NCBI GenBank assembly: GCA_034509735.1
Contig: JACGWO010000012.1
Span: 1,736,001 to 1,800,000, forward strand
Length of the DNA stretch: 64,000 nucleotides
From: Sesamum alatum
Lineage: Eukaryota > Streptophyta > Magnoliopsida > Lamiales > Pedaliaceae
Direction: 5' to 3'
Shown here piece after piece: positions 4,000-50,295 of the stretch (positions are counted from its first letter, which is position 1; each line of letters begins with the position of its first letter). Below the pieces are notes generated by a model. It saw only the letters and a program-made list of their open reading frames with translations, was not told the origin of the DNA and searched no databases. The position numbers were made by a program, and so were the translations under genes.

Positions 4000-6025
4000 C
4001 TAGTTGTGTTTAAAGCGAATGTGGGGAAGGCTGATAGCGTCAAGAAATAGAATACCTTTAATCTTACCCTTTAGTTGATCCTCTGTCATAACCTGCAAGC
4101 TATCCTCTGAGCATGCCTGATTTGCAAGAAGGTCGGCCGCTTGGTTGCCTTCCCTGAAGATGTGAGAGATTTTGTATTCAATCTATCTGAGGTATCCTTT
4201 TATTTGCATAAGAGTGTGTTGAAGTATCCAGGCTCCTTTGATGGGTGGAGTAAAGATGTTAATGATGATAGCTGCATAGTCTCGATCCAGATCTTGTCGA
4301 TCCCTTTTTTCACGCAGATTTGCAATCCTTTGAGAAGGGCGCGAAGTTCTGCTTGGATGTTGGATGCATACCCCAGCGGTTCCATAAAGGCAAACAAACC
4401 TTTTTCGGAGTGGTCTCTAAGAATGCCACCAGCCCCGGATTGGCCGGGGTTGCCTTTGGAGGCCCCCTCTATGTTGAGCTTCTTCCACCCGATATCAAGT
4501 TTCAACCAAGTCACCATGGAAGTGGTGGGGTGTTTCTATTTGCATGGAATATATAGTTTCAGTTGTCTTGCAGTCACATGGTCGTCAAACAGATGCCCCA
4601 CTTTCAGCAATTTGCTTTTTTGGAGGAGATGGATATGTGTGATGACCTTGTGGATAATGTTGCTGTGTTTGAAAGCGATTCCTTCATGTCTTGTCTCATT
4701 TCTAGCTTTCCAGATGTACCAACAAATGATGGCTGGCATGGTGTTTCTGAGTAGGACTTTATTCGAAATGGACCTTCTCCAAGCCATGAAGAATGTTTGT
4801 ATGGCAGCAGTTTGTGGGAGTGTAACTTGGAATTTGTTGGCAAAGAATCTCCAAAGCAGCTCAACATTATTGCATTCCATGAATAGATGTCGGATAGTTT
4901 CTTCTTTTTGGCAGCTGCAACATCGTGAAGCTAGATTAATGCCTTTGTGCTGAAGAGCTTTCTCCACGGGTAGCCACGAGTTGGCTAGTCTCCAGTTGAA
5001 AATGGACATAGATGGTGTCAAAAGAGGAGACCAAAGTATTTGGTAGAAGCTCTGGTTGTTGTTAGACTGTTGAATGTGGTTCTAGGACGATGATGTAGAA
5101 AAACTTCTATGAGTGGTAATCCTCCAATGCATCTGGTCTCGGGGGGTTTGGCAAATAGAGATAGCCACAATGGTGGGAATGAGGTCTGTAGGGATCACCT
5201 GCTGAAGTTTATCAATGCTCCATTGGTTTTCTCTCCAGAACCACTTAACGGGGATATGTGTTGGGTTGTAGTTTCCTGTTAGTTCTTGTAGGGTACCTTC
5301 CTTGATCCACCAATCCTACCAGAAGCTAGCCTCTCCATTGCCAAGTGTCCAGAAGATGTGGTTTTGTGCTACCATTTGAACTTGGCACATTCTCTTCCAG
5401 GGGGAGGAGTTATTCTTGTTGGCCTTGACTGTCGCTGGTGATTTTCTCTTGCAGTATTTCGAGAGGAGGAATTTGGCCCACAAGGATTTGTTGGCCCTGA
5501 ATCTCCACCAAATTTTATGTGAGAATGCTTTGACCACTTCTCTAGTCTCTAATTCCCAGACCTCCTTCTTCGTAGGGAAAGCAAATGTTTCTCCATTTGG
5601 TCTAGTGTATTCTTCTTTGGCTCTCAGTGGATCCCTAGAAATATTTGGCCATAAGCTGCTCTATATTCTAAATAACTCCTATTGGTGGGCGGAGGACCTG
5701 GAGAAGATAGACGGGCATGGTTGATAGTACGCTGCGGATCAGCTTTAACCTTCATCCGAATGAGAGCAGACGGTGTTCCCATCCTGAAATTTTAGAACAG
5801 ATCCTATCAGTAAGATCATCAAATAAGATTTTTTTCTTTCTACCTTTGTACAGAGGGGCCCCCAAATAGGTGATTGGGAGTGATTTTAGACAGAATCCTG
5901 TAATACTCTTTATCCTTTGTGCAATAAGATTGGCTTTCTTTCCGAGGATAAATGAGCTTTTTGATTGATTTATCTTCTGACCCGAGATTGCTTCGTACCA
6001 CTGCAGGAAGGACATAAGCCTAGTT
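4000..6025 (-). pseudogene. LINE ORF2, C-terminal third: RT thumb, zf-RVT and RNase H
   Basis: ORF2 copies the LINE RNA at the nicked target. From 6025 down the frame resumes right after solo LTR C with FLQWYEAISGQKINQSKS and SLPITYLGAPLYKGRKKK, the RT connection region. A damaged stretch (5750-5020) follows, including HKIWWRFRANKSLWAKFLLS. The zf-RVT domain is at 5021-4536: IFNWRLANSWLPVEKALQ, then CCSCQKEETIRHLFMECNNV, supplying Cys/His ligands. RNase H is at 4500-4015: KLNIEGASKGNPGQSGAGGI, then a broken end REGNQAADLLANQA and the stop at 4000-4002. The first RNase H catalytic Asp (usual DGASKGNPG) reads Glu. Several stops and frameshifts. Confidence 0.8.
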
Positions 6026-8256
6026 TGAAGGACAAGCGGATCTGCCCGGGAGCGCGAGCGGAAGCTAGGAATGCGAGGAAGTGCGTAAATTTAAATCAAA
6101 TTCAAAATACGCAAATCCCAAGGGGTGTACCCTTGGGTGCTCAACCGGGCGTTCGATGTAGGATGTGTAAATATTAAAACATATATTTAAACACATAGGG
6201 CATAGATATACAAATGAAATCAATCAAAGCGTAATAAACCGTTACCTTTGATTGTTTAGCGTATGCTCCCGGCTACTAGCGTTGTTCCTTCTCCGGAATG
6301 CTCACGAAATCCAAACGTATGGATTCTCCAAAGGTGATCCACACCACACCGGAAGAAACACACGTTCTTCTTGCTAGAAAAGAACGGGTTTAGGAAGGAA
6401 TCGGTTTAAGAGAAGAACACTATGAATTAGTGTTCTCTTAAACTTACTTTGTTCTTCTTCTTGATTCAAAATCAAGTGAAGAACACAAGTGTAAGAGAGG
6501 GAGGGAGCACGAAATTTTGAGAGAAAGGAGAGGATTTTTGTCTTCTCTTTTTCCTAGAAAAAGATGAATAATGAATCACTTATGCTAGGTGTTGTATATT
6601 CTAATATATATATACATAATTAATGTGATTATTGGAATGTGTCTAGGTTCATCCAAGGATGTCTAGATTCATTCCAATCAATCACCATCAATTCTTCAAT
6701 CAAGCCTACCAAAATTTATGGTATGATCAAATCATACCAAAAGGGAAGAGCTTGATTGGAGTTGATTTGTCTCTTTCCAAAAGAGACAAGTCAACATACC
6801 ACCTAGCATGAAACATGGCTGATTTTGCTTCCTCCAAGGGAGCATGTCGGCCATATTTAATTAAGGGAAGAAGTCCAACTTCTTCCTATTCCAAATTAGG
6901 AATTATTTCTCCTCTCGGGTATAATTTAACGGACCGGGTTTTTATCGTAATCCAATTACGACGATCCCAATATTAAATCCAATTTAATGTCCACTTAAAT
7001 TATTCCCGTTGATCTTTTAATCCAATTAAAAGATCCAACGTCTCAACATCTCAACTTTCCATATTTAATCGAAAATCCAATTTACCGATTAAATGAAAGC
7101 CCGATACAATATCGGCCCGTCCATCCAATGGACTTTCCCTTAAGTAATCCAATTACTTATTTTATCCTTCGAGATTGACTCCAAGTTGATCTCTCAACCT
7201 CCTCGGTGATTTGTGTGTGACCCTTTAGGTTCACCCTCAGCTAGACTTGGGCCCGTGTCCCACAAGGGCCCGTTACCATGGGTGGCTGTCTAGCAACGGT
7301 CCATGGCACTAGAGACTAGGTGAATTGGCGTGAACATTTAGGCGCCGATTCCGTACGGGTACGATCCTTCCGTCTACCGTCTCCCGGCCTTAGTCTAGGG
7401 TATGGAATTGGGCGTCGGTTCCCATCCTTGACTAGGCATCTATGCTTAATACTCGAGACCACGTATGCTTCATTGCGTCGACACAGGAAACCATTCCCTG
7501 TTCGACCAACCACTGTGGCCACAGCTTCAAACAGCATGAACGTGTCTCCGAGTGCATAGGAGATACCTCTGTCACATACTGACAGGGGACGGATCCTCTT
7601 CTTGGAATCCACCGTCCTCGCTACACATTCCGACTGCACTGGACAAGGCTTATAATGATCATCTTACAGAATGATCACCTCTCGCCAGATCCAAGATACA
7701 GCCGTCCTGTGCACGTGACTGCCATGATTCCTCAAGTCTGAGGATTACTCCCGTACTATCGGAACCGGGGAATCCAATCATACCGACCAAGCCTCCAAGG
7801 CTTCCATATGATGATCCCCGCGAGTCAGTCCAGTTGGCTCGACCCCAGTCGACCAACCCATCAAGACCGTGTAGGCGTCCCACGCCTGTCGCCGATGAAA
7901 CACGGCACTCATCCAATGAACACGACTCTTGACGCAAGTCTCAATAGGACTCTCGATGCCCTGTCTCGAGGTCCTCGACTTGGAATGTTTCAGACCCAAC
8001 TCTTAATCAGCTGGTTTCATGACCACCATCCAATGCGTGGCCCAACTGCACGAGTTGTTATCCATGGTCTGTGGGCTTTGTTGCGATATAAGTTAAAACA
8101 CCGGTTTAACAAATGTAAGATGAGCGCAACAAAGAAGGTACCATTGGTGATGAACACTCATCTTATTCATCACATAATAATATTACATTCACATCAAGTT
8201 GTCGGATAGGTTACAAATTGCCAAACCTATTGGCTTTCTGGTCACCTATTCCAACA
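6026..8256 (-). mobile_element. Solo LTR 'C' of copia family 2, inserted in LINE ORF2
   Basis: On the minus strand it starts TGTTGGAATAGGTGACC (8256) and ends CTTGTCCTTCA (6026). It is flanked by perfect 5-bp TSDs tagtt (6021-6025 and 8257-8261). Its 2231 bp match solo LTR B and the LTRs of D along their length. It has no primer-binding site or polypurine tract next to it, so it is a solo LTR left by LTR-LTR recombination. It includes the hairpin row with CCA/TGG loops at about 6945-7159. Confidence 0.92.
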
Positions 8257-8675
8257 TAGTTAGACTGTCTTCCTCACCATCAGTAAATAAAATAACGTCA
8301 TCTGCATATGCTAAGTGAGAAATTTTAGTGGTACTTCCTGTCTTGTAGTGCATCTCTAGGTTGCAGTGGAAGAGGTGTTCCAGACCCCGTGAGAGTGCTT
8401 CAGCGGCAATAAGAAATAAGGCTGGCGATATGGGGTCTCCTTGTCTCAGTCCATGCGTGGATTTAAAGAATACGCATGTATCGCCATTAACTAAGACGGT
8501 AAACCAACAATTTTCTAACAAGTGCCTCGTGAGCTGTATAAAGCTGGCTGGAAATCCCATGAGTGTCATCACTCTGTATAAGAGTTTCCAACTGACTTTG
8601 TCATAGTCTTTTTGCATATCCAGTTTGATGACTAAATTCCCCTTGTTGTTCCTGTGGTCCAGATCATGCACCATC
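8257..8675 (-). pseudogene. LINE ORF2, central reverse-transcriptase core
   Basis: This piece lies between element A (right) and solo LTR C (left). It contains the RT palm: VIKLDMQKDYDKVSW (first catalytic Asp), GFPASFIQL, STHGLRQGDPISPALFLI and the catalytic SHLAYADDVILFTDG, with both Asp present. The frame is open across the piece. On the minus strand it joins exactly to the N-terminal RT piece at 21110 (..NILLAQE then MVHDLDHR) and to the C-terminal piece at 6025 (..EEDSLT then RLMSFLQWY) once the TSDs are counted once, which supports the nesting model. Confidence 0.88.
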
Positions 8676-10584
8676 TAAAAGCCTAGCAAAGGCGTGTGGA
8701 TCGGCCCGGGAGTAGCGCGAATGCAGAAGCGCGGTATAAGTAAAATTGCAAGAATTTAAACATGCATAAACGAGATAAAATAAACACGTTCAAGGGGTGT
8801 TCCCTTGAACCTCCCGGGCGTTTGGTGTATCTCATGAATAAATAAAAACATACAAAACTTTTCATGGAGGCCATAGGGTTTAAAAGAAAAGGGACGAAAA
8901 TCTTAAACCGAAAACCTACTGATTGTCGTTTTCGTCTTCAAGACGGTACTCGCGTTGTTCCCCGTTTTACTCCAAGATCTCGAATGGGAGACCCTCTAAT
9001 TCGTACACGCAATCCGCCCACGTATCTTGATCTTCGTGCTAGCAAAAGAACAAGTGTATGTTTATTTGGAGAGGATGGATTGATCGAACGTTATTGATTA
9101 ACGAGATCAACCCTCCTTAGAGTTCAATTGTGAAATACAAAAGAACTTGGAAGAGTTTCTTGGAAGAAAGGGAGAGAGGGTTCGGCCGAGAGAGAGAGAG
9201 ACGAAGAGCCGAAGTGTGTGTATGTGTGTGTGCTTCAATTTTTCATCATCTCTTCCAAAGAGAACACTTAGGAGTATTTATAGAGGAGGAATCCTATTCC
9301 TCTTCTAATTCCTGCTCTTTGAAGACTCCTCCTTGAATAGGATTTGACCTAGTCAAATCTTAGTCAACTACTAGCTTTCTTGGTCAAACCAATCCTAGCC
9401 ATTGATTCCTCTCTTTAATCTCAACCATTGATTAATTTAATGGAATATTTAAATCTCATTTAAATAATCCAAAAGGCAATAAATAAATATATCAAATATA
9501 AATATTTATTCCAAGGCTATTAAATTAATTTTCAATAAATCTAATTTATTAGATAAATTCCTTTCATCTAATAAAAGGAATTAATTTCTTCCCAAGAAAG
9601 AAGGACCCGATTAAATCCAATTTAATCGTTCCATTTCTCCAAATATTTAATTCCAAATTAAATACGTCATGTGTGCGGATTGTGCGTGACTCTTTAGGTG
9701 AATATGCGTGGGAATGAACATTTAGGCTCTACAGTATATCTATCCTTCTGTCTACGGTCTCACTACTTAGGGTCTAGGGCACGGATATGTAGGTACCCAT
9801 TTTGGACCTAAGTGTCGGTCTGTCCTTTACCAAACGCCTGCAGAGAAACCTTCCCTTCTGTTCAGTTACTGTGGGCACAGATTTTAGGGACGAGATACAG
9901 AGTATTGTGAGACACAACTGTCAACACCCTTGACAGGAGACAGATCCTTTATTGGAAACTACTGTCACGTTGTACACCGTGGCTGCACTAGACATGGCTT
10001 ATGACTGCTCAACTGCATTTTGGCAATCTCTCACCATACCTAAGATACAGTCTTGATGTATAGGTAAACTCAATAATTCCTCAAGTCAAAGGATTTGACC
10101 TGTACCATTGGAACGAGAACTCACGTCATACCTAGCCGAACCTACTCAAGGTCCTCCGTAAGACGGATCCCACGAGTCACCTCAGTCAACCGCTCCTCAG
10201 CAGGCCGACCCACTAACACTCTTAGACGACCCTCGTCATCCGTCGATGAAACACGACAGTAGATGCTTAGTGCAAGTCTCAAGTCGAATCTCGGTACCCA
10301 TTTTCGAGATTCCTTGACTTGGAGATTTCCTGACTGATTCGGCGGAACTGATTTCATGGACCTACCTCCAAGCGTAGTCCCAGTCCCCGAAATGTGATTT
10401 CAGTATATGGGCTTTGTTTGTGTAGCGAACAGTTATAAAGCAGATAAAGTGAACACAGACAAAGTATGCGCCAAATGAATTTTTACTTTCTTATTCATCA
10501 AGGTTTTATTACAACTTCGAAATTGTTCAGACATAGGTTACAATTCGCCTAACAAGATTGGCTACATGGTTACCTATTCTAACA
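8676..10584 (-). repeat. Element A 3' LTR
   Basis: 1909 bp. It reads TGTTAGAATAGGTAACCATG... from 10584 down to 8676. It is shorter than the 5' LTR by about 86 bp, mainly because the block corresponding to about 20127-20215 (after 'tgtgactctttaggt') is missing around 9700. It includes the W-box region near 9340-9395 and the GAGA-type microsatellite near 9185-9230. Confidence 0.9.
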
Positions 10585-10600
10585 ATCTCCCACTTGACCT
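10585..10600 (-). promoter_or_regulatory. Element A polypurine tract
   Basis: Minus strand aggtcaagtgggagat lies between the pol stop and the 3' LTR. The same tract precedes the 3' LTRs of D, E and F. It primes plus-strand DNA synthesis. Confidence 0.8.
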
Positions 10601-13600
10601 TTAAAGCCAATCGCCCATATTCCTAATCCCCATCTTCTCAAGATGTTGCGTATGAGCGCTCTGCGACATAGGCTTTGTTAGCATATTTGCTGTGTTGTCT
10701 GCTGAGTTGACTCGGTCCATCCGAACGTCACCTCTTCCCACCATGTCTTGTAGAAGGTGGTAGCGTCTAAGAATGTGTTTGGATCGGTGATGAGATCTCG
10801 GTTCCTTTGCTTGCGCTATGGCTCCGTTGTTATCACAAAAGATGACAACAGGCTCGGCGATGCTAGGCACCACACCCAACTCTTAAATGTAGTTTCTCAT
10901 CCAAACCGCTTCTTTAGTAGCTTCTGAAGCTGCTATGTATTCGGCCTCAGTGGTGGAATCAGCAGTGGTTGCTTGCTTGGAACTTTTCCATGCTACCACT
11001 CCTCCATTGAGCTTGAATACATAACCTGATTGAGACTTGGCATCATCGTCATCTGCCTGGAAGCTAGCATCGCTAAAGCCTTCCAGGATTAGTTCTCCAT
11101 TGCCATAGACTAGGAACATTTCATTAGTCGTCCTTAGGTACTTAAGGATGCCCTTGACAGCATTCAAATGTGCCTCTCCTGCACAGGACTGATATCTGCT
11201 TGTTACACTTAAGGCCTAAGCGATATCAGGTCTAGTTCAGTGGACTGCATATTAGATGCTTCCTACGGCAGAAGCATAGGGAACGATTTTCATCTTTTCA
11301 AATTCCTCATCAGTCTGCGGAGACTGTTTCTTGGACAACTTGATCCCATGCCCAATGGGAAGGGATCCTAGTCTGGAGTTGTCCACCCGAAACCTTTTCA
11401 GGACTTTCTCCATATACGAGTTTTGGGTTAGTCCTAACATTCTTTTAGATCTGTCCCTGACAATTTGGATGCCAATAATGTAGGAGGCTTCACCCAAATC
11501 CTTCATGGAAAACTGAGTTGATAACCATGCTTTTGTGTTACCCAACATTCTAACGTCATTTCCTATGAGTAGAATGTCATCCACATGAAGCACTAGGAAC
11601 ATTATAGAGCTCCCACTGACCTTCTTTTATACACAAAGGTCGGATTCGTTTTTGATGAAATCATAACCCCGCATGACTTCGTCAAAGCGAATGTTCCAAC
11701 TTCGGGATGCTTGTTTGAGGCCATAGATGGACTTTTGGAGACGACAGACCTTCTGTTCTTCTCCGGCGATCGTGAAACCCTCTAGTTGATCCATGTAGAT
11801 CTCTTCCTCAACGAAACCATTGAGGAAGGCCGTTTTCACGTCCATCTGCCATATCTTATAGTCATACCATGCTGCTATGGCAAGCAGGATCCGAATGAAC
11901 TTAGCCATGACTACTGGCGAGTAGGTGTCCTCAAAATCGACCCTGGGTCGTTGAGTGTACCCTTTTGCTACTAGCCTAGCCTTGAAGGTTGTGACTTCTC
12001 CATCAATGCCAAGTATGCGCTTATAGGCCTATTTACAGCCAACTGGCTTAACCCTTTTAGGTGGGTCTACAAGTGTCCAGACTTGGTTCTCATTCATGAA
12101 ATCCATTTCGGTTTTCATGGCCTCAAGCCATCTCCCGGAGTCGATGTCGAACATCGCTTCCCCGTATGTTTTAGGATCCTTATCCAATAGACTAGTCGTG
12201 TTTAGAAAGCCGTATCTTATAGGAGATCGTGACTCTCTAGCTGACCTATGGAGAACGGGAACGTCAGTGGTGACTATGGGCGCTGACTGTATTGGAGCCG
12301 GCGGTTCAGGTACCGAGGCTGGCCCTTCCTGAGGTCGTCCTTCATGCCTAGCATGCTGGACTTCTCGAGGTTGGTCAACCCTCTGGGTATCTATCCTGAA
12401 TCCTCTAAGTGAAGAATCTGCGGCTTCCACTGATGATTGGTTTCCATCAATTGACTCCTCAAGGATCAGTTCATCAGGTTGGATATCCTCTGGAAAGCCT
12501 TGTTCCAAGAACACTGCGTTCCTTGAAAAAAAATACTTTTTGTTCCAAGGGGTCATAGAAATAATAACCTGCAGTTTCCTTGGGGTATCCAACGAACCTG
12601 CATAAACTAGACTTTGATTCTAGCTTGTCTCCCACTAGCTTCTTGACGTATGCAGGGCTACCCCACACTTCAAGGAGTTGTAGGACGCAGGCTTGCCGTG
12701 CCATATTTCATATGGCGTTTGGGTCAATTGGTTGGTGCCAAATTTAACAACTTGACCGCAGTCTCCAATGCGTAGCCCCGAAAGGACAAGGGCAATTTGG
12801 TAAAACTCATCATGGATCGAACCATGTCCAACAGGGTTCGATTCCTCCTTTCAGAGACCCCATTTAATTGTGGTGGCTCGGGAGGTGTCCATTCAGAGAT
12901 TAGACCATTTTCTTTAAGATAATTAAGGAACTCAGTACTAAGGTACTCTCCGCCTCGGTCTGATCGCAGGGCTTTAATTTTGCAGCCGGTTTGGTTCTCA
13001 ACTTCAAGTCTAAATTCTTTAAACCTCTCAAGAGCTTCAGACTTGTACCTCATTAGGTATACATAACCATACCGTGAATGATCATCGGTGAAGGTTATGA
13101 AGTAGGAGAACCCACCTCGGGCTTGCGTCCTTAGTGGTCCACATACATCTGCATGGACCAAGTCCAACAGACCTGTGTGAAGCCTGCGTTGTCCTACAAA
13201 GGGCTTCTTGGTCATTTTTCCTCTGAGACAGGATTCGCAAGTTGGTAGCTCACTCAAGTCCTCTACCTCTAGGTTCTTTGAGTCTACCAATTTCTTCATC
13301 CTATTTTGGGAAATGTGACCTAGCCTCGCGTGCCACAGTTGTACGTTCCCGTTATTATCTATTTTACGTTTGTGTTGAGTGTTTAGAACGAAGTTTGTTT
13401 GTTGTAAGATATAGAGACCGTTATTAAGCGTACCAAGCAGATGAGCAATACCACACCTCATCAAATAAAAGCAATTTTTATTGATCATAAACTCACATCC
13501 ACTATTGTCTAACAATGGAATGGAAATGATGTTTCTAATCATGCTAGGTACATAATAAACTTGCTCTAATTCTATACTAATGCGATCACTAACTCCTAGA

Positions 13601-14042
13601 GTGGCGGATCCTACTGCTTCTGCCGAGATGACCTTGCCATTCCCAAGCTTTAGGATCATGTCCCCGCTACTCAGTTTTCTGCTTCTTTTCAGCACCTGAA
13701 AATCATTGCAAATGTGAGCTTCACAACCGGTATCTAATACCCAAGTGGCAGTGTTAATAAACATATTCACCTCAATCACAAAGATACCTTGTTTGGAGAG
13801 GAGTTTGGGACATTCCCTCTTCCAATGCCCTTTCTCACGACAATTGATACATATGTCATATGCCCTCGACTGTTGCTTTGAGTCAACCTTCCCCTTTCCT
13901 TTGCATTTCCCCACTTTGGCAATGGGAACACTCTTAGTGTTGGTAGCTGCTTTGACGGCTTTTTCCTTTCCCTTCTTCCTTTTCCAACATCCGGCACCCT
14001 TGCCTTTCGTTTTGGAAGTTGAAGCATCTCCAAACAATACCG
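10601..14042 (-). pseudogene. Element A gag C-terminus and pol (PR, INT, RT, RNase H)
   Basis: Continues gag after solo LTR B. A Lys-rich linker leads to the CCHC knuckle (CINCREKGHWKREC, near 13840), then protease with its catalytic Asp (WVLDTGCEAHICND, near 13730). Integrase has HARLGH, CESC zinc ligands near 13240-13330, then VHADVCGPL, TFTDDHSRYGY and SDRGGEYLS. Two small deletions break the frame near 12720 and 12680. Another frame change occurs in a T-run near 12535. The RT part has [18 protein letters not shown] and LHVDDILLIGND (near 11590). RNase H has KQATTADSTTEAEY and FCDNNGAIAQAKEPRSHH, ending with TAA at 10601-10603. At least five frame breaks make it non-functional. Confidence 0.85.
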
Positions 14043-16271
14043 TGTTGGAATAGGTGACCAGAAAGCCAATAGGTTTGGCAATTTGTAACCTATCCGACAA
14101 CTTGATGTAATTGTAATATTATTATGTGATGAATAAAGTGAGTGTTCGTCACTATTGGTACCTACTTTGTTGTGCTCACTTTACATTTGTTAAAACGGTG
14201 TTTAACTTATATCGCAACAAAGCCCACAGACCATGGATAACAACTCGTGCAGTTGGGCCACGCATTGGATGGTGGTCATGAAACCAACTGATTAAGAGTT
14301 GGGTCTGAAACGTTCCAAGTCAAGGACCTCGAGACAGGGCATCGAGAGTCCTATTGAGACTTGCATCAAGAGTCGTGTTCATTGGATGAGTGCCGTGTTT
14401 CATCGGCGACAGGCGTGGGACGCCTACACGGTCTTGATGGGTTGGTCGACTGGGGTCGAGCCGACTGGACTGACTCGCGGGGATCATCATATGGAAGCCT
14501 TGGAGGCTTGGTCGGTATGATTGGATTCCCCGGTTCCGATAGTACGGGAGTAATCCTCAGACTTGAGGAATCATGGCAGTCACGTGCACAGGACGGCTGT
14601 ATCTTGGATCTAGCGAGAGGTGATCATTCTGTAAGATGATCATTATAAGCCTTGTCCAGTGCAGTCGGAATGTGTAGCGAGGACGGTGGATTCCAAGAAG
14701 AGGATCCGTCCCCTGTCAGTATGTGACAGAGGTATCTCCTATGCACTCGGAGACACGTTCATGCTGTTTGAAGCTGTGGCCACAGTGGTTGGTCGAACAG
14801 GGAATGGTTTCCTGTGTCGACGCAATGAAGCATACGTGGTCTCGAGTATTAAGCATAGATGCCTAGTCAAGGATGGGAACCGACGCCCAATTCCATACCC
14901 TAGACTAAGGCCGGGAGACGGTAGACGGAAGGATCGTACCCGTACGGAATCGGCGCCTAAATGTTCACGCCAATTCACCTAGTCTCTAGTGCCATGGACC
15001 GTTGCTAGACGGCCACCCATGGTAACGGGCCCTTGTGGGACACGGGCCCAAGTCTAGCTGAGGGTGAACCTAAAGGGTCACACACAAATCACCGAGGAGG
15101 TTGAGAGATCAACTTGGAGTCAATCTCGAAGGATAAAATAAGTAATTGGATTACTTAAGGGAAAGTCCATTGGATGGACGGGCCGATATTGTATCGGGCT
15201 TTCATTTAATCGGTAAATTGGATTTTCGATTAAATATGGAAAGTTGAGATGTTGAGACGTTGGATCTTTTAATTGGATTAAAAGATCAACGGGAATGATT
15301 TAAGTGGACATTAAATTGGATTTAATATTGGGTTCGTCGTAATTGGATTACGATAAAACCCGGTCCGTTAAATTATACCCGAGAGGAGAAATAATTCCTA
15401 ATTTGGAATAGGAAGAAGTTGGACTTCTTCCTTTAATTAAACATAGCCGACATGCTCCCTTGGAGGAAGCAAAATCAGCCATGTTTCATGCTAGGTGGTA
15501 TGTTGACTTGTCTCTTTTGGAAAGAGACAAATCAACTCCAATCAAGCTCTTCCCTTTTGGTATGATTTGATCATACCATAAATTTTGGTAGGCTTGATTG
15601 AAGAATTGATGGTGATTGATTGGAATGAATCTAGACATCCTTGGATGAACCTAGACACATTCAAATAATCACATTAATTATGTATATATATTAGAATATA
15701 CAACACCTAGCATAAGTGATTCATTATTCATCTTTTTCCAAATAAAAAGGAGAAGACAAAAATCCTCTCCTCTCTCTCAATTTTCGTGCTCCCTCCCTCT
15801 CTTACACTTGTGTTCTTCACTTGATTTTGAATCAAGAAGAAGAACAAAGTAAGTTTAAGAGAACACTAATTCATAGTGTTCTTCTCTTAAACCGATTCCT
15901 TCCTAAACCCGTTCTTTTCTAGCAAGAAGAACGTGTGTTTTCTTCCGGTGTGGTGTGGATCACCTTTGGAGAATCCATACGTTTGGATTTCGTGAGCATT
16001 CCGGAGAAGGAACAACGCTAGTAGCCGGGAGCATACGCTAAACAATCAAAGGTAACGGTTTATTACGCTTTGATTGATTCCATTTATATATCTATGCCCT
16101 ATGTGTTTAAATATATGTTTTAATATTTACACATCCTACATCGAACGCCCGGTTGAGCACCCAAGGGTACACCCCTTGGGATTCGCGTATTATGAATTTT
16201 ATTTAAATTTACGCAATTTCTCGCTTTTCTCGCTTCCGCTCGCGCTCCCGGGCGGATCCGCTTGTCCTTCA
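14043..16271 (+). mobile_element. Solo LTR 'B' of copia family 2, inserted in gag of element A
   Basis: 2229 bp on the plus strand, starting TGTTGGAATAGGTGACC and ending CTTGTCCTTCA. TSDs are taccg (14038-14042) and tagcg (16272-16276), with one mismatch. The uninterrupted gag of E reads through the site (cttcggtattgtttgg), which confirms the insertion point. There is no internal region, so it is a solo LTR. It carries the clearest copy of the seven-hairpin row (15139-15353). Confidence 0.92.
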
Positions 16272-16878
16272 TAGCGACGGCGTAGACTTTTTGGTCGTTG
16301 CCTCGTATTGCACCAACATATTGATTAACTCATGAATACCCTTCTCAAGTGTGTTCATGTTTAACAATGAATTGGTCGAAGGAGGGTGGGAGAGACTGAA
16401 GGATCACATCTATTTACGTCTCGTTATCGAGCCCTGCCTTGAGGTCCTCTAGCTTTTTCACCAAGGTAAGAATCTTGACCCCATGCTCTTGTACAGAGGA
16501 CCCTTCGGTCATTTTAGTTCCAAAGAACGCCTTCGTCGTGACATACCTAGTATGCCGGTCCGGGACTGCATAGCAATCCTTCAGGTGAGCCATAATGGAA
16601 GGGACATCGTCTAGCCTTTCATATTGCTTTTGAATCTCATTCGTCATAGAGGCAAGTATGATGCTACGGACTTTTCGGTTATCCTTATGCCAAGTCTCGA
16701 ACGTCTCACGTTCTTCTAGCGTGGATCCTTCCGGCAAGGTCCTAGGGAACGGCTCGTCCATGATGTAGCCTTGGTTCTCGTAATCTAGGACTATCCTCAG
16801 ATTGCACAACCAGTTGTTGTAATTGGATCCAGTAAACTTGTTGGTCTCAAGTATGGTTGATAATGGGTTCTTAGACAT
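16272..16878 (-). pseudogene. Element A gag, N-terminal part
   Basis: Gag forms the particle that packages the element RNA. The frame starts at 16878 with MSKNPLSTILETNKFTGSNY, then NWLCNLRIVLDYENQGYIMD, then the conserved RSIILASMTNEIQKQYERLD and KAFFGTKMTEGSSVQEHG. It stops at a TAA after GLDNET, where E and F continue with TYIDVI (TAC), so this is a point nonsense mutation. The remaining gag codons run to 16272, where solo LTR B interrupts. The rest of gag continues at 14042. Confidence 0.85.
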
Positions 16879-19100
16879 TTTTAAATCTACATTTAAAAGA
16901 ACAGAACTACGATCAACAGAATTTTAAAAGACGGAAGTTTTAATAAATAATTAAAGGGCTTGGACTTAAGTCATTTAATGCTCCCACTATTTATACGAAA
17001 ACACGATACTCTTAAACGTTGTTTTTGGGAAACACCCTTTCCTAGTGGGCTTGGGATCCACAGCTATTTTCCCCATACCCTGCTTTTACGATTCGCATGA
17101 GAAGAATCCTGTGGGAGGTATACCATACCATTCTCGTTCCACGAGATTCCCAAGATAATTGCCTCATCCTTCCATATGATCCCGAGTACTCCAAGCGAAT
17201 CACGTTATTTGGGCGTTAGACTCGACCCAATCAACCGAATCATAGACCCACTGCTACCTCTACGACTCGTGAGACAGGTAACAACAGTCTACTTTTCATT
17301 CATGACATAGTGCAGCTTCTTTTAAGCACGATAGTCGTGCCACGACTCGTGAGACCATGCTATCGACCTAAATTAGCTTCCTCACTATACCATGGATTGG
17401 AAGGCATGGACGAACTCCTAGAGTTCATGTCCATTTATCAAGGGTCTAATATTTTGAACTTTGGTCCAACCAAGTGAGAGTTGTAAATGATCGAGATCCC
17501 ATACATATACACATTCATCCATAATGCGTAATTTATAGTTTGCATCCCATAGCAGTAATATGATAAATAAACCATTTATTCACCATAAAAGCCACATGCA
17601 AAATTAAAGCCTAGCACGCCCCTGTTGGATGATCACGAGCCCGAATTCTATGCGACCCACTGAGCCCGTAGTGGATCTATGGTCAATCTAGGGTTGGTCC
17701 TACACTATTACATTTAATAGCAACCCGATCAACATGCTGATGGGCCTTGGTCTCTTTTCTCTTTCAAATCTCCATGGAAACGCCTTGGATCCTCCATTCT
17801 GGGCTCTCCATGTGGACCATCCTTCATCTCCACCAAATATATAAAAATAAAAATCCTCACTCCTACACTACTCTCATTACATATGTAAAAAGAAACCCCG
17901 GCAAAAACCCGGGGGGAGTACAATAGGAGGGAGATAGAATGCCTTATTATTCCAAGGCAACTAGAAGAGGAGAAGGAGAAAGCAAAAGAGGCACACATGC
18001 CCAACACAAATTAAACCATACATTCGGTCTAGGGCTCGTGATCATCCATTCTCAATAAACGCACATAATTACATGATTTTCAACCACATAAACATATGCA
18101 TATAATCCATGATATCCAATCACATCATCCTATGATAAAGTAACGAGTTATGTATGAAAACATGGTACAACTTTGGCAATAACCTTTCTTGTTTAGGAAA
18201 ATCCTTCCTCAGTATTTGAACGTGAATAATACCCCGGGATTCCAAATCAAATACAACAACCTTCCAAATAATGTTCTTTCAGAAAACATGCAAAATTAAA
18301 TAAAACTAATTTTTCAGAATTATCTAAAAAATTAAATAACAAGAAAACGTAAATATTAACCGGCCGCCGTCTCTGGCGGCGCTCTACTGCGCACACAGGC
18401 CAGCAGGCCCAGCCTGCTTTCCGCGCGCGCGCAGGGCATGCTTGACCGGGCGCGCGCGCAGGCCCCTTCTTGCTCACGCGCGCGCCTGGTCGACTGTGCT
18501 GCGCAAGTTGGCGGGCTGCCGCGCGCAGGCACCTCTGCCCGCGTGCACCATCCTGCCGCGCGCGCGTGTGTGCATTGGGCGCACCTGCCGGGCGCGCGCG
18601 TGCAGACTCCGTTATCTGCCTGCGTGCGCGCCTGGCAGCGCTGCCTCATGCTCGCGTGCGCAGGCGGCCTCCCTGGCCGCGCAGGCGCTCCGACACACTG
18701 GCCTGGCGCGGGCGCGTGGGCTTCCCTGCCTGTCTGCGTGCGCGCGCGCGCCCGGCCATGCATCTGCGCTTGGCGTCTGGCGAGCCTGCCACGCGCGCGC
18801 TGTGCGCGTCTGGCGAGCCTGCCACGCGCAGGCTCCTCTTCCTGCACGCGCGCCTCGTCTGAGCGCACTGCGTGCGCGGTCAGCCACCGGCTGGCCGCGT
18901 GTGTCGTTTTCCTCCGTTTTATTTTTCTGCCCCCCGTTTCCCAAGAAAAATAAGAAAGCAACAACACCAAAATTCATACATGATTAAAAGTAAGAAAACG
19001 ACATGCTTGATAATTAAAACATCAAGAATTAAATAAATCATGCCATTCACGTTTTCATGCTTTAAACGCACACAAAACCCTAAGCCTATACACCGAATCG
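16879..19100 (-). other. Element A leader between primer-binding site and gag, with GC island
   Basis: This 2.2-kb untranslated leader is colinear with those of E and F. It holds a CpG-rich block (18361-18905) of GCGCGC runs, the 16-bp inverted repeat ggatgatcacgagccc (17627-17642 with its complement at 18032-18047), and the paired palindrome motif cacgactcgtg (17341-17351, and a one-mismatch copy at 17261-17271). Frames open in all six readings across the GC block are a composition effect. Confidence 0.75.
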
Positions 19101-19114
19101 GGCTCTGATACCAC
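19101..19114 (-). promoter_or_regulatory. Element A primer-binding site (initiator tRNA-Met)
   Basis: On the minus strand: gtggtatcagagcc directly after the 5' LTR. TGGTATCAGAGC is complementary to the 3' end of plant initiator tRNA-Met, the usual copia primer. Confidence 0.85.
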
Positions 19115-21109
19115 TGAAAGCCTAACAAAGGCGTGTGGATCGGCTCGGGAGTAGCGCGAATGTGGACGCACGGTATAAATAAAATTGCAAGAATTTAAAC
19201 ATGCATAAACGAGATAAAATAAACACGTTCAAGGGGTGTTCCCTTGAACCTCCCGGACGTTCGGTGTATCTCATGAATAAATAAAAACATACAAAACTTT
19301 TCATGGAGGCCATAGGGTTTAAAAGAAAAGGGACGAAAATCTTAAACCGGAAACCTACCGATTGTCGTTTTCGTCTTCAAGCCGGTACTCGCGTTGTTCC
19401 CCATTTTGTCCAAGATCTCGAATGGGAGACCCTCTAATTCGTACACGTAATCCGCCCACGTATCTTGATCTTCGTGCTAGCGAAAGAACAAGTGTATGTT
19501 TATTTGGAGAGGGCGGATTGATTGAACGTTATTGATTAACGATATCAACCCTCCTTAGAGTTCAATTGTGAAACACAAAAGAACTTGAAGAGTTTCTTGG
19601 AACAGAGGGAAAGAGGGTTCGGCCGAGAGAGAGAGAGGAGGAGCTGAAGTGTTCGTATGTGTGTGTGCTTTAATTTTTCATCATCTCTTCCAAAGAGAAC
19701 ACTTAGGAGTATTTATAGAGGAAGATTCCTATTCCTCTTCTAATTCCTACTCTTTGAAGACTCCTCCTTGAATAGGATTTGACCTAGTCAAATCCCAGTC
19801 AACTACTAGTTTTCTTGGTCAAACAAATCCTAGCCATTGATTCCTCTCTTTAATCTCAACCATTGATTAATTTAATGGAATATTTAAATCTCATTTAAAT
19901 AATCCAAAAGGCAATAAATAAATATATCAAATATAAATATTTATTCCAAGCCTATTAAATTAATTTTCAATAAATCTAATTTATTAGATAAATTCCTTTC
20001 ATCTAATGAAAGGAATTAATTTCTTCCCAAGAAAAGAAGGACCCAATTAAATCCAATTTAATCGTTCCATTTCTCCAAATATTTAATTCCAAATTAAATA
20101 CGTCATGTGTGCAGATTGTGTGTGACTCTTTAGGTTCAACTTCAGCTAGACTTAGTTGGATTCCTAGAATCCGCCCGTCACCATGGGTGGTCGTCTAGCA
20201 ACGGTCCATGAAACTAGAGATTAGGTGAATATGCGTGGGGATGAACATTTAGGCTCTACAGTACATCTATCCTTCCGTCTACGGTCTCACCGTTTAGGGT
20301 CTAGGGCACGGATATGCAGGTACCCATTTTGGACTTAAGTGTCGGTTTGTCCTTTACCAAACGCTGCAGAGAAACCTTCCCTTTGGTTCAGTTACTGTGG
20401 CCACAGATATTAGCGACGAGACACAGAGTATTGTGAGACACAACTGTCAACACCCTTGACAGGAGACAGATCCTTTATTGGAAACTAATGTCACATTGTA
20501 CACCGTGGTTGCACTAGACATGGCTTGACTACTCAACTGCATTTTGGCAATCTCTCACCATACCTAAGATACAATCTCGATGTACAGGTAAACTCAGCAA
20601 TTCCTCAAGTCAAAGGATTTGACCTGTACCGTTGGAACCGGGAACTCACGTTATACCTAGCCGACCCTACTCAAGGTCTTCCGTAAGACGGTTCCCGTGA
20701 GTCACCTAAGTCAGCCGCTCCCCAGCAGGCCGACCCACTAACACTGATTAGACGACCCTCGTCACCCGTCGATGAAACACGATAGCAGATGCTTAGTGCA
20801 AGTCTCAAGTGGAATCTCAGTACCCATTTTCGAGATTCCTTGACTTGGAGATTTCCAAACTGATTCGGCGAAATTGATTTCATGGACCTACCTCCAAGCG
20901 TAGTCCCAGTCCCCGAAATGTGATTTCAGTCTATGGGCTTTGTTTATGTAGCGAACAGTTATAAAGCAGATAAAGTGAACACAGACTAGTATGCGCCAAA
21001 TGAATTTTCACTTTCTTATTCATCAAGGTTTTATTAAAACTTCGAAATTGTTCAGACATAGGTTACAATTTGCCTAACAAGATTGGCTACATGGTCACCT
21101 ATTCTAACA
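19115..21109 (-). repeat. Element A 5' LTR
   Basis: 1995 bp, with TG at 21109 and CA at 19115 on the minus strand. TATA-like ctataaatactcc lies near 19710-19725 (minus). Upstream of it, at 19778-19823, are four TTGAC cores in both orientations (W-box type). Confidence 0.9.
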
Positions 21110-22754
21110 CCATCTCTTGTGCCAAGAGGATGTTGTCGCTGATGAGTCTTCCTAGAACAAAGCTGCTTTGATTAGGTTAGATGATGGAGGGAAGAACTTG
21201 AGCCATCTTCTTGTAAAGGAGTTTTGACAGAATCTTGTTGGTTACATTACAGAGTGATATATGTCTGAAGTCGTTCCATGATTGCGGAGATTCCACTTTT
21301 GGAATCAGTGTGGTAGTAGTGGCTGAAAAGCTTCGGGGCATTGGAGTACCACGGAAGAAATCAAGAACAACTTCCATCACATCTTGTTTGATAAAGTCCC
21401 AGCACAATTAAAAGAAGATTGAGTTAAATCCGTCTGGTCCTGCGGCACTGTTTCTATCAATGGTGAAGATTGTGTCTTTAACTTCCTCCATTGTTGGCAT
21501 TGTTACAAGTGTTGCCATCGACTCAACAGGGAGATGAGGGAGAGAGAATGGTAGTGTATCCTCATTTTCTGGTGAGGAGATGTTCAAAGTAGCTGGCTGC
21601 TGATGACTTAATATGAGCTGGAGTGGTGATTTCAGTTCCATTGTCGACAATTCTGTAGATTCTGGATCTCACTCTCTTCTTCTTGACTAGGGGGTAGAAG
21701 AATTTAGTGTTTCTCTCCCCTTCTACCAACCATTTACAGCTGCTTTTCTGTCTCCGAAATTCCTCCTCTAGTGATAGTGCATGGATTAGCTCTGCATTAC
21801 TTTTTTTTAGTTCAATCTGATTAATTTCCGATGGTTGGCTATCAAATCGTTGTTCTGCCTCTGTAGCTTTTCTCTTTGCTTCTTCGACTCGGTCGTAGAC
21901 ATTGCCAAATGTGTTCTTGTTCCAGTGCTTCAAAAAATCCTTTGTCCTATACAGTTTTTGTTGCAGCTTGTACATCACGTATCCATGGATGGGCAGACTC
22001 CAGGATTGTTCCATCATCTTTGAGAAGTTGTGGTGTTTGATCCACATGTTCTGGAATCGGAATGACGTAGGTCCTCTTTCATCCTGGAAGGATGCTGTGA
22101 TGAGTAGAGGGTGATGATCTGAGGTGCGTCTCGATAGGTAGGAGACTCTAGTGGTGTTGAAGATTTATGTCCAGTCACTACAGTATAGAACTCGGTCAAG
22201 TCTTCTCCAAACCCTGTTGTTTGTCCAGGTGAAAGAGGAACCTTCAAATCCTGCGTCTTGTGACCCTGTTTCCATGATCATTTCTCTGAAGTCATCCATA
22301 TGCCCCAGCTGGTTACTACCTCCCTGGTTTTCTAAGTTGTGAAGGAAAGTGTTGAAATCTCCCCCGACCAGCCAAGGGGTTGGAGATGTGGATATGTTGA
22401 GAAGTCCTTCCAGAGCAGTCTTCTTGGCGACTTGTAGCATTTGTCATAGACAAAGGTACAAGATATGTCATTGGGGAGGGAGGGTGAGCTAATATACACA
22501 TGTAGGAATTGAGGGTTGTCTTTCAAGATTTGGATGTTTAGACCATACGAGCCAAAACACCAAATTTTGTTATTCACATTAGAACATGAAAACTGAAATC
22601 CAAGTCTTCTAACAAATACGTTATTATCCAACTGAACAAATGGTTCCAACAAAACAAGAACATGTGGTTTGTCTTCAGTGAGCATTTCAAGAAGTATCCT
22701 CTGTTTAGCAGTTTTACCAATACCCCTGATATTCCATATAAGGATCTTGATCAT
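21110..22754 (-). pseudogene. LINE ORF2, endonuclease and N-terminal RT
   Basis: ORF2 starts at 22754 with MIKILIWNIRGIGKTAKQ, the usual start of the plant L1 APE-type endonuclease, which nicks target DNA. After a frameshift near 22340 come PWLVGGDFNTFLH (GDFN motif) and SSFTWTNNRVWRRLDRVL. A linker follows (SWSLPIHGYVMYKLQQKL, then EEEFRRQKSSCKWLVEGERN). RT starts with IDRNSAAGPDGFNSIFF, a stop, LIPKVESPQSWNDFRHISLC, and NQSSFVLGRLISDNILLAQE before element A interrupts. At least four frame breaks. It begins one base after the ORF1 stop, a typical L1 junction. Confidence 0.85.
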
Positions 22755-27839: not shown

Positions 27840-30044
27840 TGAAGGACAAGCGGATCCGCCCGGGAGCGCGAGCGGAAGCGAGAAAGCGAGAAAAGTGTGT
27901 AAATTAAATCAAATCTAATTTAAAATACGAACCCCAAGGGTTGTTCCCTTGGGTGCTCAACCAGGCGTTCGATGTAGGATGTGTAAATATTGGAAATGAA
28001 TATTAAACACATTGGGCATAGATAAATATATATAATCAATCAAAGCGTAATAAACCGTTACCTTTGATTGTTTAGCGTATGCTCCCGGCTACTTGTGTTG
28101 TTCCTTCTCCGGAATGCTCACGAAATCCAAATGTATGGATTCTCCAAAGGTGATCCACACCACACCGGAAGAAACACACGTTCGTCTTGCTAGAAAAGAA
28201 CGGGTTTAAGAAGGAATCGGTTTAAGAGAAGAACACTATGAATTAGTTCTCTCTTAAACTTACTTTGTTCTTCTTCTTGATTCAAAATCAAGTGAAGAAC
28301 ACAAGTGTGAGAGAGGGAGAGAGGGCCGAGAGTTGAGAGAGAGGAGAGGGATTTTGTCTTCTCTTTTTCCCAGAAAAAGATGAATAATGAATCACTTATG
28401 CTTGGTGTTTTATATTCTCATATATATACATAATTAATGTGATTATTGGAATGTGTCTAGGTTCATCCAAGGATGTCTAGATTCATTCCAATCAATCACC
28501 ATCAATTCTTCAATCAAGCCTACCAAAATTTATGGTATGATCAAATCATACCAAAAGGGAAGAGCTTGATTGGAGTTGATTTGTCTCTTTCCAAAAGAGA
28601 TAAGTCAACATACCACCTAGCATGAAACATGGCTGATTTTGCTTCCTCCAAGGGAGCATGTCGGCCATGTTTAAATAAGGAAGAAGTCCAACTTCTTCCT
28701 ATTCCAAAATAGAAATTATTTCTCCTCTCGAGTAAATTTAACGGACCGGGTTTTATCGTAATCCAATTATGACGAACCCAACATTAAATCCAATTTAATG
28801 TCCATTTAAATTATTCTCGTTGATCTTTTAATCCAATTAAAAGATCCAACGTCTCAATGTCTCAACTTTCCATATTTAATCGAAAATTCAATTTATCGAT
28901 TAAATGAAAGCCCGATACAATATCGGCCCGTCCATCCAATGGACTTTCCCTTAAGTAATCCAATTACTTATTTATCCTTCGTGATTGACTCCAAGTCGAT
29001 CTCTCAACCTCCTCGGTGATTTATGTGTGACCCTTTAGGTTCACCCTCAGCTAAACTTGGGCCCGTGTCCCACAAGGGCCCGTTACCATGGGTGGCCGTC
29101 TAGCAACGGTCCATGGCACTAGAGACTAGGTGAATTGGCATGAACATTTAGGCGCCGATTTCGTACGGGTACGATCCTTCCGTCTACCGTCTCCCGGCCT
29201 TAGTTTAGGGTATGGAATTGGGCATCGGTTCCCATCATTGACTAGGCATCTATGCTTAATACTCGAGACCACGTATGCTTCATTGCGTCGACACAGGAAA
29301 CCATTCCCTGTTCGACCAACCACTATGGCCACAGCTTCAAACAACATGAACGTGTCTCCGAGTGTATAGGAGATACCTCTGTCACATACTGACAGGGGAC
29401 GGATCCTCTTCTTGGAATCCACTGTCCTTACTACATATTCCGACTGCACTGGACAAGGCTTATGATAATCATCTTACAGAATGATTACCTCTCGCCAGAT
29501 CCAAGATACAGCCATCATGTGCACGCGACTGCCATGATCCCTCAAGTCTGAGGATTACTCCCGTACTATCGGAACCGGGGAAAACCAATCATACCAACCA
29601 AGCCTCCAAGGCTTCCATATGATGATCCCCGCCAGTCAGTCCAGTCGGCTCGACCCCAGTCGGCCAACCCATCAAGATCGTGTAGGCGTCCCACACCTGT
29701 CGCCAATGAACACGACTCTTGACGCAAGTCTCAATAGGACTCTCGATGCCCTGTCTCGAGGTCCTCGACTTGGAATGTTTCAGACCCAACTCTTAATCAG
29801 TTGGTTTCATGAGCACCATCCAATGCGTGGCCCAACTGCACGAGTTGTTATCCATGGTCTGTGGGCTTTGTTGCGATATAAGTTAAACACCGTTTTAACA
29901 AATGTAATATGAGCGCAACAAAGAAGGTACCATTGGTGACGAACACTCATCTTATTCATCACATAATAATATTACATTTACATCAAGTTGTCAGATAGGT
30001 TACAATCGCCAAACCTATTGGCTTTCTGGTCACCTATTTTAACA
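27840..30044 (-). repeat. Element D 3' LTR
   Basis: 2205 bp, reading TGTTAAAATAGGTGACCAG from 30044 and ending CCTTCA at 27840 on the minus strand. Relative to B and C it has a ~21-bp deletion near 29703, in the block 'cgccgatgaaacacggcac'. It contains the hairpin row at about 28755-28970. Confidence 0.9.
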
Positions 30045-30058
30045 ATCTCCCACTTGAC
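30045..30058 (-). promoter_or_regulatory. Element D polypurine tract
   Basis: Minus strand ggtcaagtgggagat directly abuts the 3' LTR. It is the same as in family 1. Confidence 0.75.
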
Positions 30059-32694: not shown

Positions 32695-33592
32695 TCATAA
32701 TCCAATTAGACCGTTGAACACAAACATACCTAGATTGGAGATCAGTTGTGGGCACTCCCTCTTCAAATGTCCTTTTCCTTGGCAATTCATGCAGACATCA
32801 TTTGCCTTGGACCGCTGAGAACCATGGGCCTTTCCTTTTTCCTTTGCTCGGTCCAACCGGAGCAATAGGGATGCCCGGAGCGCGAGCAAGGGCCGCAACT
32901 GTCTTCCCTTTGCCCTTCTTCCTCTTCCAGCGTCCGACCCTCTTGCCATTCGCTTTGGAGGTCGAAGCCTCTCCTATCAATACCGCCGGCGCCGACTTGA
33001 GGGTCGTTGCCTCGTATTGGACCAGCATATTAATCAACTCATGAATAGACTTCTCAAGCCCGTTCATGTTGTAGTTTACAACAAACAGGTCATAGGATGG
33101 AGGAAGCGACTGGAGGATCACGTCAATGTACGTGTCATTGTTAAGCCCAGCTTTAAGGTCCTCAAGTTTCTCCACTAGGGAGAGCATCTTGACCCCATGA
33201 CTTTGTACAGACGCTCCTTCAGCAAGCTTGGTGCCAAAGAATGCTTTTGTGGCGCAATATCTAATATGCCTATCCGGAACTGCATAAACCTCGTTCATGC
33301 GGAGCATTATGGCGGAGACGTTGTCCAGCCTCTCATACTGCTTCTGGATATCGTTAGACATCGAAGCCAGTATGATACTGCGTACTTTCCGGTTGTCCTC
33401 ATGCCATTTCTCGAACGTCAAACGTTCTTCAGCCGTGGACCCCTACGGTAAGTCGCTCGGTGGCGGCTCATCCAAGACGTAGCCTTGGTTCTCGAAATTG
33501 AGGACAATCCTCAGGTTTCTCAGCCAGTCCGAGTAGTTCGTTCCGTTGAATTTGTTAGTCTCGAGAATCATGGTTAATGGGTTCTTAGACAT
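32695..33592 (-). pseudogene. Element D gag
   Basis: The gag start lies at 33592 (MSKNPLTMILETNKFNGTNY). A TAG stop interrupts the N-terminal region near 33446, where E and F have a GAA codon (PEGST). The frame then runs from 33421: KWHEDNRKVRSIILASMSND, KAFFGTKLAEGASVQSHG, KLEDLKAGLNNDTYIDVILQ, KSIHELINMLVQYEATTLKS. A Lys-rich tail follows, and after a frameshift the CCHC knuckle CMNCQGKGHLKREC (near 32770). Gag then runs straight into a joint: the protease region is missing. Confidence 0.82.
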
Positions 33593-35588: not shown

Positions 35589-35801
35589 ATATTTAATTAG
35601 GAATTAAATATTGGAGTGAAGGAATGATTAAATTGGATTTAATCGGGTCCTTTATTTTTCTTGGAGAAATAATTCCTTCTATTAGATATAAGGAATTAAA
35701 TTGATAAATTAGATTTATCAAAGGGATTTATTTAATGGGCTTAAATAATATTTATATTTATTTTAGCCTCTTGGAAATATTTAAATAGGTTTTTAAATAT
35801 T
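35589..35801 (+). repeat. Row of short perfect hairpins in family 1 U3
   Basis: Four inverted repeats with tiny loops: 35589-35611 (10-bp arms, loop AGG), 35626-35644 (8-bp arms, loop TGG), 35701-35721 (9-bp arms, loop TAG) and 35776-35801 (10-bp arms, loop TAGGTT). The same row is present in the other three E/F LTRs. It is the counterpart of the denser row in family 2 LTRs. Confidence 0.8.
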
Positions 35802-35856
35802 CCATTAAATTAAATCAACGGTTGAGATCAATGGGAGAGATGGATGGCTAGGATTG

Positions 35857-35920: not shown

Positions 35921-35931
35921 AGAGTTCTTAA

Positions 35932-50290: not shown

Positions 50291-50295
50291 GAAAT

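Follow-up and report, generated by a model that had tools for sequence, protein, structure and literature searches.

Triloop hairpins with a last-position G along the RNA of Ty1/copia retrotransposons of Sesamum alatum as possible dispersed packaging sites

The hairpin row of a family 2 solo LTR

Within the window, as we call the whole 64,000-nucleotide stretch of Sesamum alatum DNA analysed here, a solo long terminal repeat (LTR B) carries a row of small inverted repeats with differing arms and similar loops. The locus raises the question of whether such a row is selected, in which molecule, and for what. The initial annotation had described seven hairpins at 15139-15353, and all seven are present, as six perfect triloop hairpins (five with the loop TGG, one with TTG) and one composite hairpin with TGG. 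The row is longer than first described, continuing to 15578 with three more hairpins. The features of LTR B are as follows.

14043-16271, + strand: LTR B, family 2 solo LTR inside the family 1 element F1b (ends set by eye)
15139-15157, + strand: hairpin 1, 8-bp arms, loop TGG
15165-15179, + strand: hairpin 2, 6-bp arms, loop TGG
15183-15197, + strand: hairpin 3, 6-bp arms, loop TTG
15204-15235, + strand: composite hairpin, 9 outer pairs and 4 inner pairs around TGG
15263-15287, + strand: hairpin 5, 11-bp arms, loop TGG
15310-15326, + strand: hairpin 6, 7-bp arms, loop TGG
15337-15353, + strand: hairpin 7, 7-bp arms, loop TGG
15410-15432, + strand: added hairpin, 10 bp, TGG
15508-15530, + strand: added hairpin, 10 bp, TGG
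15558-15578, + strand: added hairpin, 9 bp, TTG
~15683-15691, + strand: TATA-like stretch (by eye)

Dinucleotide shuffling did not reproduce the row. In 5000 shuffles of the 215 bp, no sequence held more than one TGG-loop hairpin, and the means were 0.089 triloop hairpins (arm at least 6) against 6 observed and 0.0026 TGG-loop hairpins against 5 observed. Folding, proposed as a check for the LTR, was applied to 15139-15353 alone and gave energies below shuffles in all three molecules (z = -5.5 for sense RNA, -10.2 for DNA and -8.4 for antisense RNA). The row itself was drawn in DNA and antisense RNA, but in the minimum free energy (MFE) structure of sense RNA several hairpins were joined by pairing over a longer range. 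Since the row lies upstream of the TATA-like stretch, it belongs to U3, and its position in the genomic RNA is near the 3' end. Outside LTR B, at 14038-14042 and 16272-16276, five-base repeats matching at four of five bases (by eye) are likely a target-site duplication.

The row had been reported as retained in three other LTRs of the window, which was confirmed, with some decay:

6945-7159, - strand: row in LTR C
28755-28970, - strand: row in the 3' LTR of element D
55545-55752, - strand: row in the 5' LTR of element D, partly decayed

Within the latter LTR (54611-56849), the counterparts of the hairpins beginning at 15165, 15183, 15263 and 15337 are each altered; the composite hairpin 15204-15235 lies outside that comparison. 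In the window's own genome, family 2 has many copies and is young: a first look returned 1380 candidates, and all 40 that were scored matched at 99-100%. An alignment of 30 near-identical family 2 LTRs was uninformative, with 8 of 148 stem columns varying against 30 of 526 other columns.

Distribution of the hairpins along copia elements

The LTRs bearing the row belong to Ty1/copia elements, as judged by gag, integrase and RVT_2 domains in copia order, LTRs and a primer binding site. A motif directly after the 5' LTR of element D, which we take to be its primer binding site, fixes the sense strands. For counting, a last-G hairpin was defined as a perfect stem with a 3-nt loop ending in G on the sense strand, and a loop with C as its first base defined the mirror class; densities per part were taken with arms of at least 5 and counts per element with arms of at least 6. 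The parts of the window elements, with last-G hairpins observed and expected, are given below.

54598-54609, - strand: sequence taken as the primer binding site of element D (read from sequence)
53826-54610, - strand: element D leader, first part; 7 last-G (arm at least 5) against 0.42
33594-34566, - strand: element D leader, second part; 7 against 0.14
30050-33593, - strand: element D gag-pol; 15 against 0.82
32752-32793, - strand: CCHC zinc-knuckle codons of family 2 Gag (frame interrupted upstream in the element D copy)
34567-36558, + strand: family 1 LTR; 8 against 0.52
36559-38860, + strand: family 1 leader; 6 against 0.74
38861-41384, + strand: family 1 gag to integrase; 10 against 0.68; CCHC knuckle at 39664-39705
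46901-48298, + strand: family 1 RT region; 7 against 0.28
8670-21116, - strand: F1b, a diverged family 1 element split by LTR B; 17 last-G (arm at least 6) against 0.5 in the parts 10591-14041 and 16272-21116

Interior pieces and LTRs of family 1 follow each other in alternation at 34567-53825. The LTR is present four times, at spacings of about 6.8, 6.9 and 3.5 kb, which would suit recombination or head-to-tail nesting of several copies within element D.

The initial annotation had treated the row as a feature of the LTR. This was not borne out, as leader and gag-pol carry such hairpins too: last-G density was 1.8-8.9 per kb in all 15 parts scored across LTR, leader and coding region (arm at least 5). 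Per element, 33 last-G hairpins were found against 0.4 expected in family 2 (F2) and 14 against 0.4 in F1a, which like F1b belongs to family 1. The mirror class was near chance in the same elements (F2, 0 against 0.2; F1a, 0 against 0.5; F1b, 2 against 0.4). All 54 TGG/CCA triloop hairpins of the window (arm at least 6) lie inside copia elements with TGG on the element's sense strand. Irrespective of loop sequence, perfect triloop hairpins with arms of at least 6 were 8-20 times above shuffles in nine element parts. By loop length, enrichment in the window families was tenfold for 3-nt loops (85 against 8.4), about twofold for 4-nt loops (15 against 6.4) and 3- to 4-fold for 5-, 6- and 8-nt loops. 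Three controls from the window (19.7 kb), one with a Ty3/gypsy element, held no array, with 1 last-G hairpin against 1.1 expected and 0 mirror hairpins against 1.1. The gypsy-type control is window 59795-62972, its frames judged by eye; 61310-61921 was without a Pfam hit, and triloops were not in excess there. The feature is therefore an array over LTR, leader and gag-pol of both window copia families and is not LTR-specific.

Two trivial sources of the hairpins were considered and rejected. Composition fails as a cause in that the mirror class stays near chance within the same sequences, and duplication of a single hairpin fails as a general source in that arms differ and many hairpins lie in coding sequence. 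Local tandem repeats do hold some hairpins (L002 97-131 with 157-191; L005 3987-4061 with 4112-4181; see below for these elements), and counts include a few such duplicates.

The same measure was applied to copia sequences outside the window. Four (L001-L004) came from one scan of bacterial and archaeal genome contigs, and two more of the same kind (L005 and L006) from records listed as plasmids of actinomycetes. L001-L006 (e.g. NZ_CP115302.1, NZ_CP115454.1 and NZ_BMQF01000070.1) are plant-like copia elements in bacterial assemblies; they are probably plant DNA, given that the nearest proteins (for L002) come from plants. L005 and L006 are by listing complete plasmids, from two genera, and are 99.4% alike. 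The primer site of L002 comes after the LTR, close to the record end, an arrangement like that of a permuted one-LTR unit. A search of viral contigs and phages found no related elements, and a gypsy query of plasmids gave distant matches only, which were not used.

Arrays were found in L002 (27 last-G hairpins against 0.8 expected; mirror class 1 against 0.4) and L005 (15 against 0.4; mirror 0 against 0.3), and are absent from four other copia sequences (last-G 2 against 0.7 in L001, 1 against 0.3 in L003 and L004 together, and 0 against 0.2 in the distant L007). Twenty further loci from the window's own genome fell into three groups: a sister family, G1 (7 loci), family 2 type (4) and family 1 type (9). 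Last-G hairpins were in excess in all 20 (10-29 observed against 0.1-0.6 expected), with 28 against 0.2 for G1. The mirror class was 0 in 18 of the 20; L046 has 1 and L045 has 11. The mirror hairpins of L045 come from an inverted family 2 LTR beside its G1 element (~6298-6737) and thus form a natural internal control.

In a reverse transcriptase tree, F1, F2 and G1 form one clade and L002 and L005 another, with the array-free L001 in the larger clade of the latter. Among the rows tested, this implies at least two gains or losses of the array; the 10 labelled rows need two changes, whose direction (gain or loss) the tree does not give, in a sparse sampling of copia lineages that leaves 565 and 360 protein matches outside the DNA-level array count.

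Loop rule, coding constraint and strand

The last G is the most constant element of the loop. Among 125 triloop cores from F1, F2, L002 and L005, 100 ended in G and 11 began with C; redundancy was removed from this set, as from the set of 103 last-G cores used below, only for identical 15-mers. The closing pair of last-G cores was A-T or T-A in 95% of 43 coding cores (sequence 55% AT) and 94% of 81 non-coding cores (60% AT); C stood in the middle of the loop in just 2 of 124. Loops of relatives include GAG, TAG, TTG and GTG besides TGG, and among the four-base loops of L005, 5 of 15 read GGAG. The constrained item is thus a last-G loop closed by an A-U pair. Between related sequences, the last loop base had changed in 8 of 82 kept hairpins against 41 of 164 for bases 1 and 2 together (P = 0.004; P = 0.06 in the first comparison alone), a count that includes some hairpin pairs that look misaligned, as none were dropped.

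Hairpins within coding sequence were compared with synonymous-codon shuffles. The intact G1 frame held 12 last-G hairpins against 0.61 in shuffles (whole-frame MFE z = -9.7), and the L002 frame held 9 against 0.44 (z = -10.3). For one copy each of family 2 type and family 1 type, the longest stretch free of stop codons was scored (946 and 1069 codons), with 7 against 0.31 (z = -12.1) and 6 against 0.38 (z = -10.9), respectively. Smaller frames gave 4 against 0.30 and 3 against 0.29 (F1a), 3 against 0.32 and 1 against 0.06 (F2), 2 against 0.28 (F1b) and 5 against 0.36 (L005). Three gypsy frames held no last-G hairpin, with MFE z of +1.4, -1.4 and -2.0. A coding artefact was rejected, as synonymous shuffles do not reproduce the hairpins and the loop G is spread over codon phases (7/6/6 in G1 and 8/3/3 in L002).

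Low folding energy extends further than the hairpins. The frames of L001, L003 and L004 hold 1, 0 and 2 last-G hairpins, respectively, and have MFE z of -6.1, -8.2 and -3.7 against synonymous shuffles, the L003 and L004 frames containing 8 and 16 stops; global structure is therefore wider than the array. In 120-nt windows, mean MFE z was -1.1 to -2.75 in all 11 element parts and about 0 in all three controls, and in LTRs the antisense strand was similar to, and at least as low as, the sense strand. Some RNA viruses have genome-scale ordered RNA structure, with folding energy below shuffles over the whole RNA, and the elements studied here likewise fold below dinucleotide and synonymous shuffles. 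The array differs by adding a specific loop rule, and by its setting in a plant LTR retrotransposon.

Paired changes were assessed by following pairs predicted in one family in another, with expected rates taken from unpaired sites. Double changes keeping Watson-Crick pairing numbered 134 in four older comparisons, where 72.7 were expected, and 119 between F2 and G1, where 48.1 were expected, so that compensated arm changes are 1.8- to 2.5-fold above expectation; ratios are used here, because both sequences serve as reference, a column pair may count twice and Poisson values are too small. Double changes breaking the pairing were 88 against 93.5 and 40 against 59.2, respectively, and one-sided transitions in stems ran at 0.5-0.7 of expectation. 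Of the last-G hairpins, 35 of 40 were kept between families 80% alike. A leader hairpin illustrates the pattern (TCTCAT-TGG-ATGAGA against TCTCGT-GGA-ACGAGA). For the row itself, where a search for paired arm substitutions had been suggested, the outcome, like that of the shuffling, spoke for the initial annotation. In hairpin 1, compensation between F2 and G1 affects two pairs (A-T versus G-C, G-C versus A-T); hairpin 2 shows a single compensated pair (G-C versus A-T), its loop being TGG in F2 and TTG in G1. The other five are without a clear G1 match, the G1 row having its own arms with mostly TGG loops.

Taken together, the enrichment, the strand specificity of the loop, the spread over elements, the excess over synonymous shuffles and the compensation show selection on hairpins with a last-G loop. 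The earlier suggestion that shape or loop motif was selected, rather than one repeat duplicated, is supported by the differing arms, the compensated arm changes and the low rate of change of the last loop base. That the array as such is selected we regard as very likely.

The selected molecule is probably the sense RNA, for which support is moderate. Antisense-predicted stems also show an excess of double changes (145 against 45.1 expected); compensation therefore does not pick the strand. Changes that make G.U pairs do differ between strands, with 350 against 314 expected in sense stems (z = 2.99) and 241 against 275 in antisense-predicted stems (z = -2.83). Taken singly, one of seven older sense comparisons reached P < 0.05, and F2-G1 gave P = 0.35; two comparisons of recent family 2 LTRs had no G.U bias. 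Within single copies, all triloops together had no G.U excess (17 G.U against 16 A.C), and last-G hairpins with one internal mismatch comprised 14 G.U, 6 A.C and 22 others. First-strand single-stranded cDNA, in which 3-nt loops beginning with C would be read or would aid strand transfer, is a very improbable alternative. The DNA fold (z = -10.2) draws exactly the row, and antisense RNA also folds well (z = -8.4), yet G.U is favoured over A.C in sense stems and the reverse holds in antisense stems, an effect of moderate size.

A possible reader of the loops

We propose the following mechanism, drawn by analogy with retroviral nucleocapsid (NC) knuckles. The unit is a perfect stem of free sequence with an A-U closing pair and a 3-nt last-G loop whose middle base is almost never C, and such units would form an array along the sense (genomic) RNA in some Ty1/copia retrotransposons of plants. 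The single CCHC zinc knuckle of Gag may take up the exposed last G of the loop, and many weak sites could together let the element's own RNA be selectively packaged and compacted in the virus-like particle, with dispersed packaging signals in place of one compact psi. As a whole, this reading of a selected sense-RNA array read by the Gag knuckle as dispersed packaging sites has in our estimate a probability of about 0.4. Its component naming the Gag knuckle as loop reader is plausible, though we would stop just short of calling it probable. The Gags of F1, F2 and L002 have one CCHC knuckle each (L005 is without gag), and many stem-loops sharing a loop motif do run along the genomic RNA. Against a Gag reader, L001 and L003 have a CCHC knuckle but no array.

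That last observation would suit a host RNA-binding protein or RNA-modifying enzyme reading the last-G loops, for export, stability, translation control or granules; the loop rule and its strand specificity need a reader and do not name one. We nevertheless consider a host reader unlikely, since the patchiness of the array among copia lineages and its absence from 19.7 kb of other window sequence (1 against 1.1) suit an element-encoded reader better. Genome-scale ordered structure without any loop reader, in which a compact fold would shield the RNA from small-RNA-guided cleavage or nucleases or would aid packaging by compaction, draws on the low z values of all element parts and of the array-free L001, L003 and L004. 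Such structure gives no reason to expect a last G, an A-U closing pair or few loop Cs, and in place of the packaging array we rate it as improbable, although it may well act beside it.

Origin by mutation, with snap-back template switching of reverse transcriptase making perfect hairpins around NNG without selection, would account for perfect and mutually unrelated arms and for the U3 rows of F2 and G1 differing mostly in their arms. It is already disfavoured, and indeed very unlikely, in view of the retention of hairpins between families, the compensated changes and the codon choice seen for a given protein. Promoter palindromes acting as DNA, whether CCAAT/NF-Y sites or cis-regulatory repeats like those of Sireviruses, are likewise already disfavoured, and we hold them to be extremely unlikely. 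Like Sirevirus motifs (PMC2829016), the row does precede a TATA-like stretch, but arms are not shared, density is equal in leader and coding region, and the loop is strand-specific. Nor did the CCAAT/NF-Y lead of the initial annotation hold: ATTGG occurs in just 15 of 103 non-redundant last-G cores (10/35 in F2, 2/27 in F1, 3/25 in L002 and 0/16 in L005).

Known systems share single traits with the array. Sirevirus LTR palindromes are also a cluster of short dyads in copia LTRs upstream of TATA (PMC2829016), a layout matched by the row (15139-15578, with the TATA-like stretch at ~15683 by eye). They represent one motif with shared arms and a CGG-CCG core in all but Tnd-1 (PMC2829016), whereas the array has differing arms and a constrained loop base: the arms of nine hairpins differ, and CCG...CGG arms occur in 15183-15197 only. 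The array also fills leader and coding region. Maize copia LTRs resemble it in strong predicted structure concentrated in LTRs (PMC10760457), but that structure is read as small-RNA targets and cis-regulatory, and the text available names no strand-specific loop rule or coding-region signal.

The closest parallel for the proposed reader lies in retroviral psi hairpins, where a knuckle takes up exposed guanosines of short loops (PMC7599994, PMC7395439). In HIV-1, NC knuckles bind guanosines in two loops, GGUG of SL2 (at G9 and G11) and GGAG, and in RSV a knuckle binds G218 within the tetraloop of SL-C (PMC7599994). The guanosines bound by HIV-1 NC are unpaired or weakly paired (PMC7395439), a preference that would suit the weak closing pair of the array loops. 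Against such a reader, MoMuLV has one knuckle, which binds a linker of sequence UCUG and whose affinity for psi hairpins in isolation was not significant (PMC7599994), and replacement of the HIV-1 GGAG loop abolished NC binding but left packaging almost unaffected (PMC7395439). Retroviral psi comprises a few hairpins of the 5' leader, in contrast to dozens along the RNA here, with Gag binding predicted for the plant elements. Dispersed packaging signals are known from ssRNA viruses such as MS2, whose genomes carry many stem-loops that differ in the stem and have a loop motif in common (PMC6281560); there, coat protein and loop motif differ, and a packaging function of the array is put forward by analogy. 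The available part of PMC3735527 contained nothing on packaging signals, and our literature search, of partial coverage, found no paper on last-G triloop arrays in LTR retrotransposons. Dispersed RNA recognition sites as such are already known; their occurrence in an LTR retrotransposon, with their own loop rule, appears to be new.

To our knowledge, how plant LTR retrotransposons choose their own RNA for packaging is poorly understood. The strand-specific loop rule lies at least 30-fold above chance in every array-bearing family tested, and it offers another reading for palindrome-rich copia LTRs, which have been taken as promoter elements (PMC2829016) or small-RNA targets (PMC10760457). In general terms, and with the same reserve as for the mechanism above, a class of copia elements may label its entire genomic RNA with dozens of last-G triloops, read by a single-knuckle Gag as a distributed self-label, so that packaging would depend on the whole RNA and the synonymous choice of gag-pol would be shaped by it. 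If true, this would mean selection on synonymous sites of gag-pol, would predict which non-autonomous partners can be packaged, and would provide a sequence signature for such elements.
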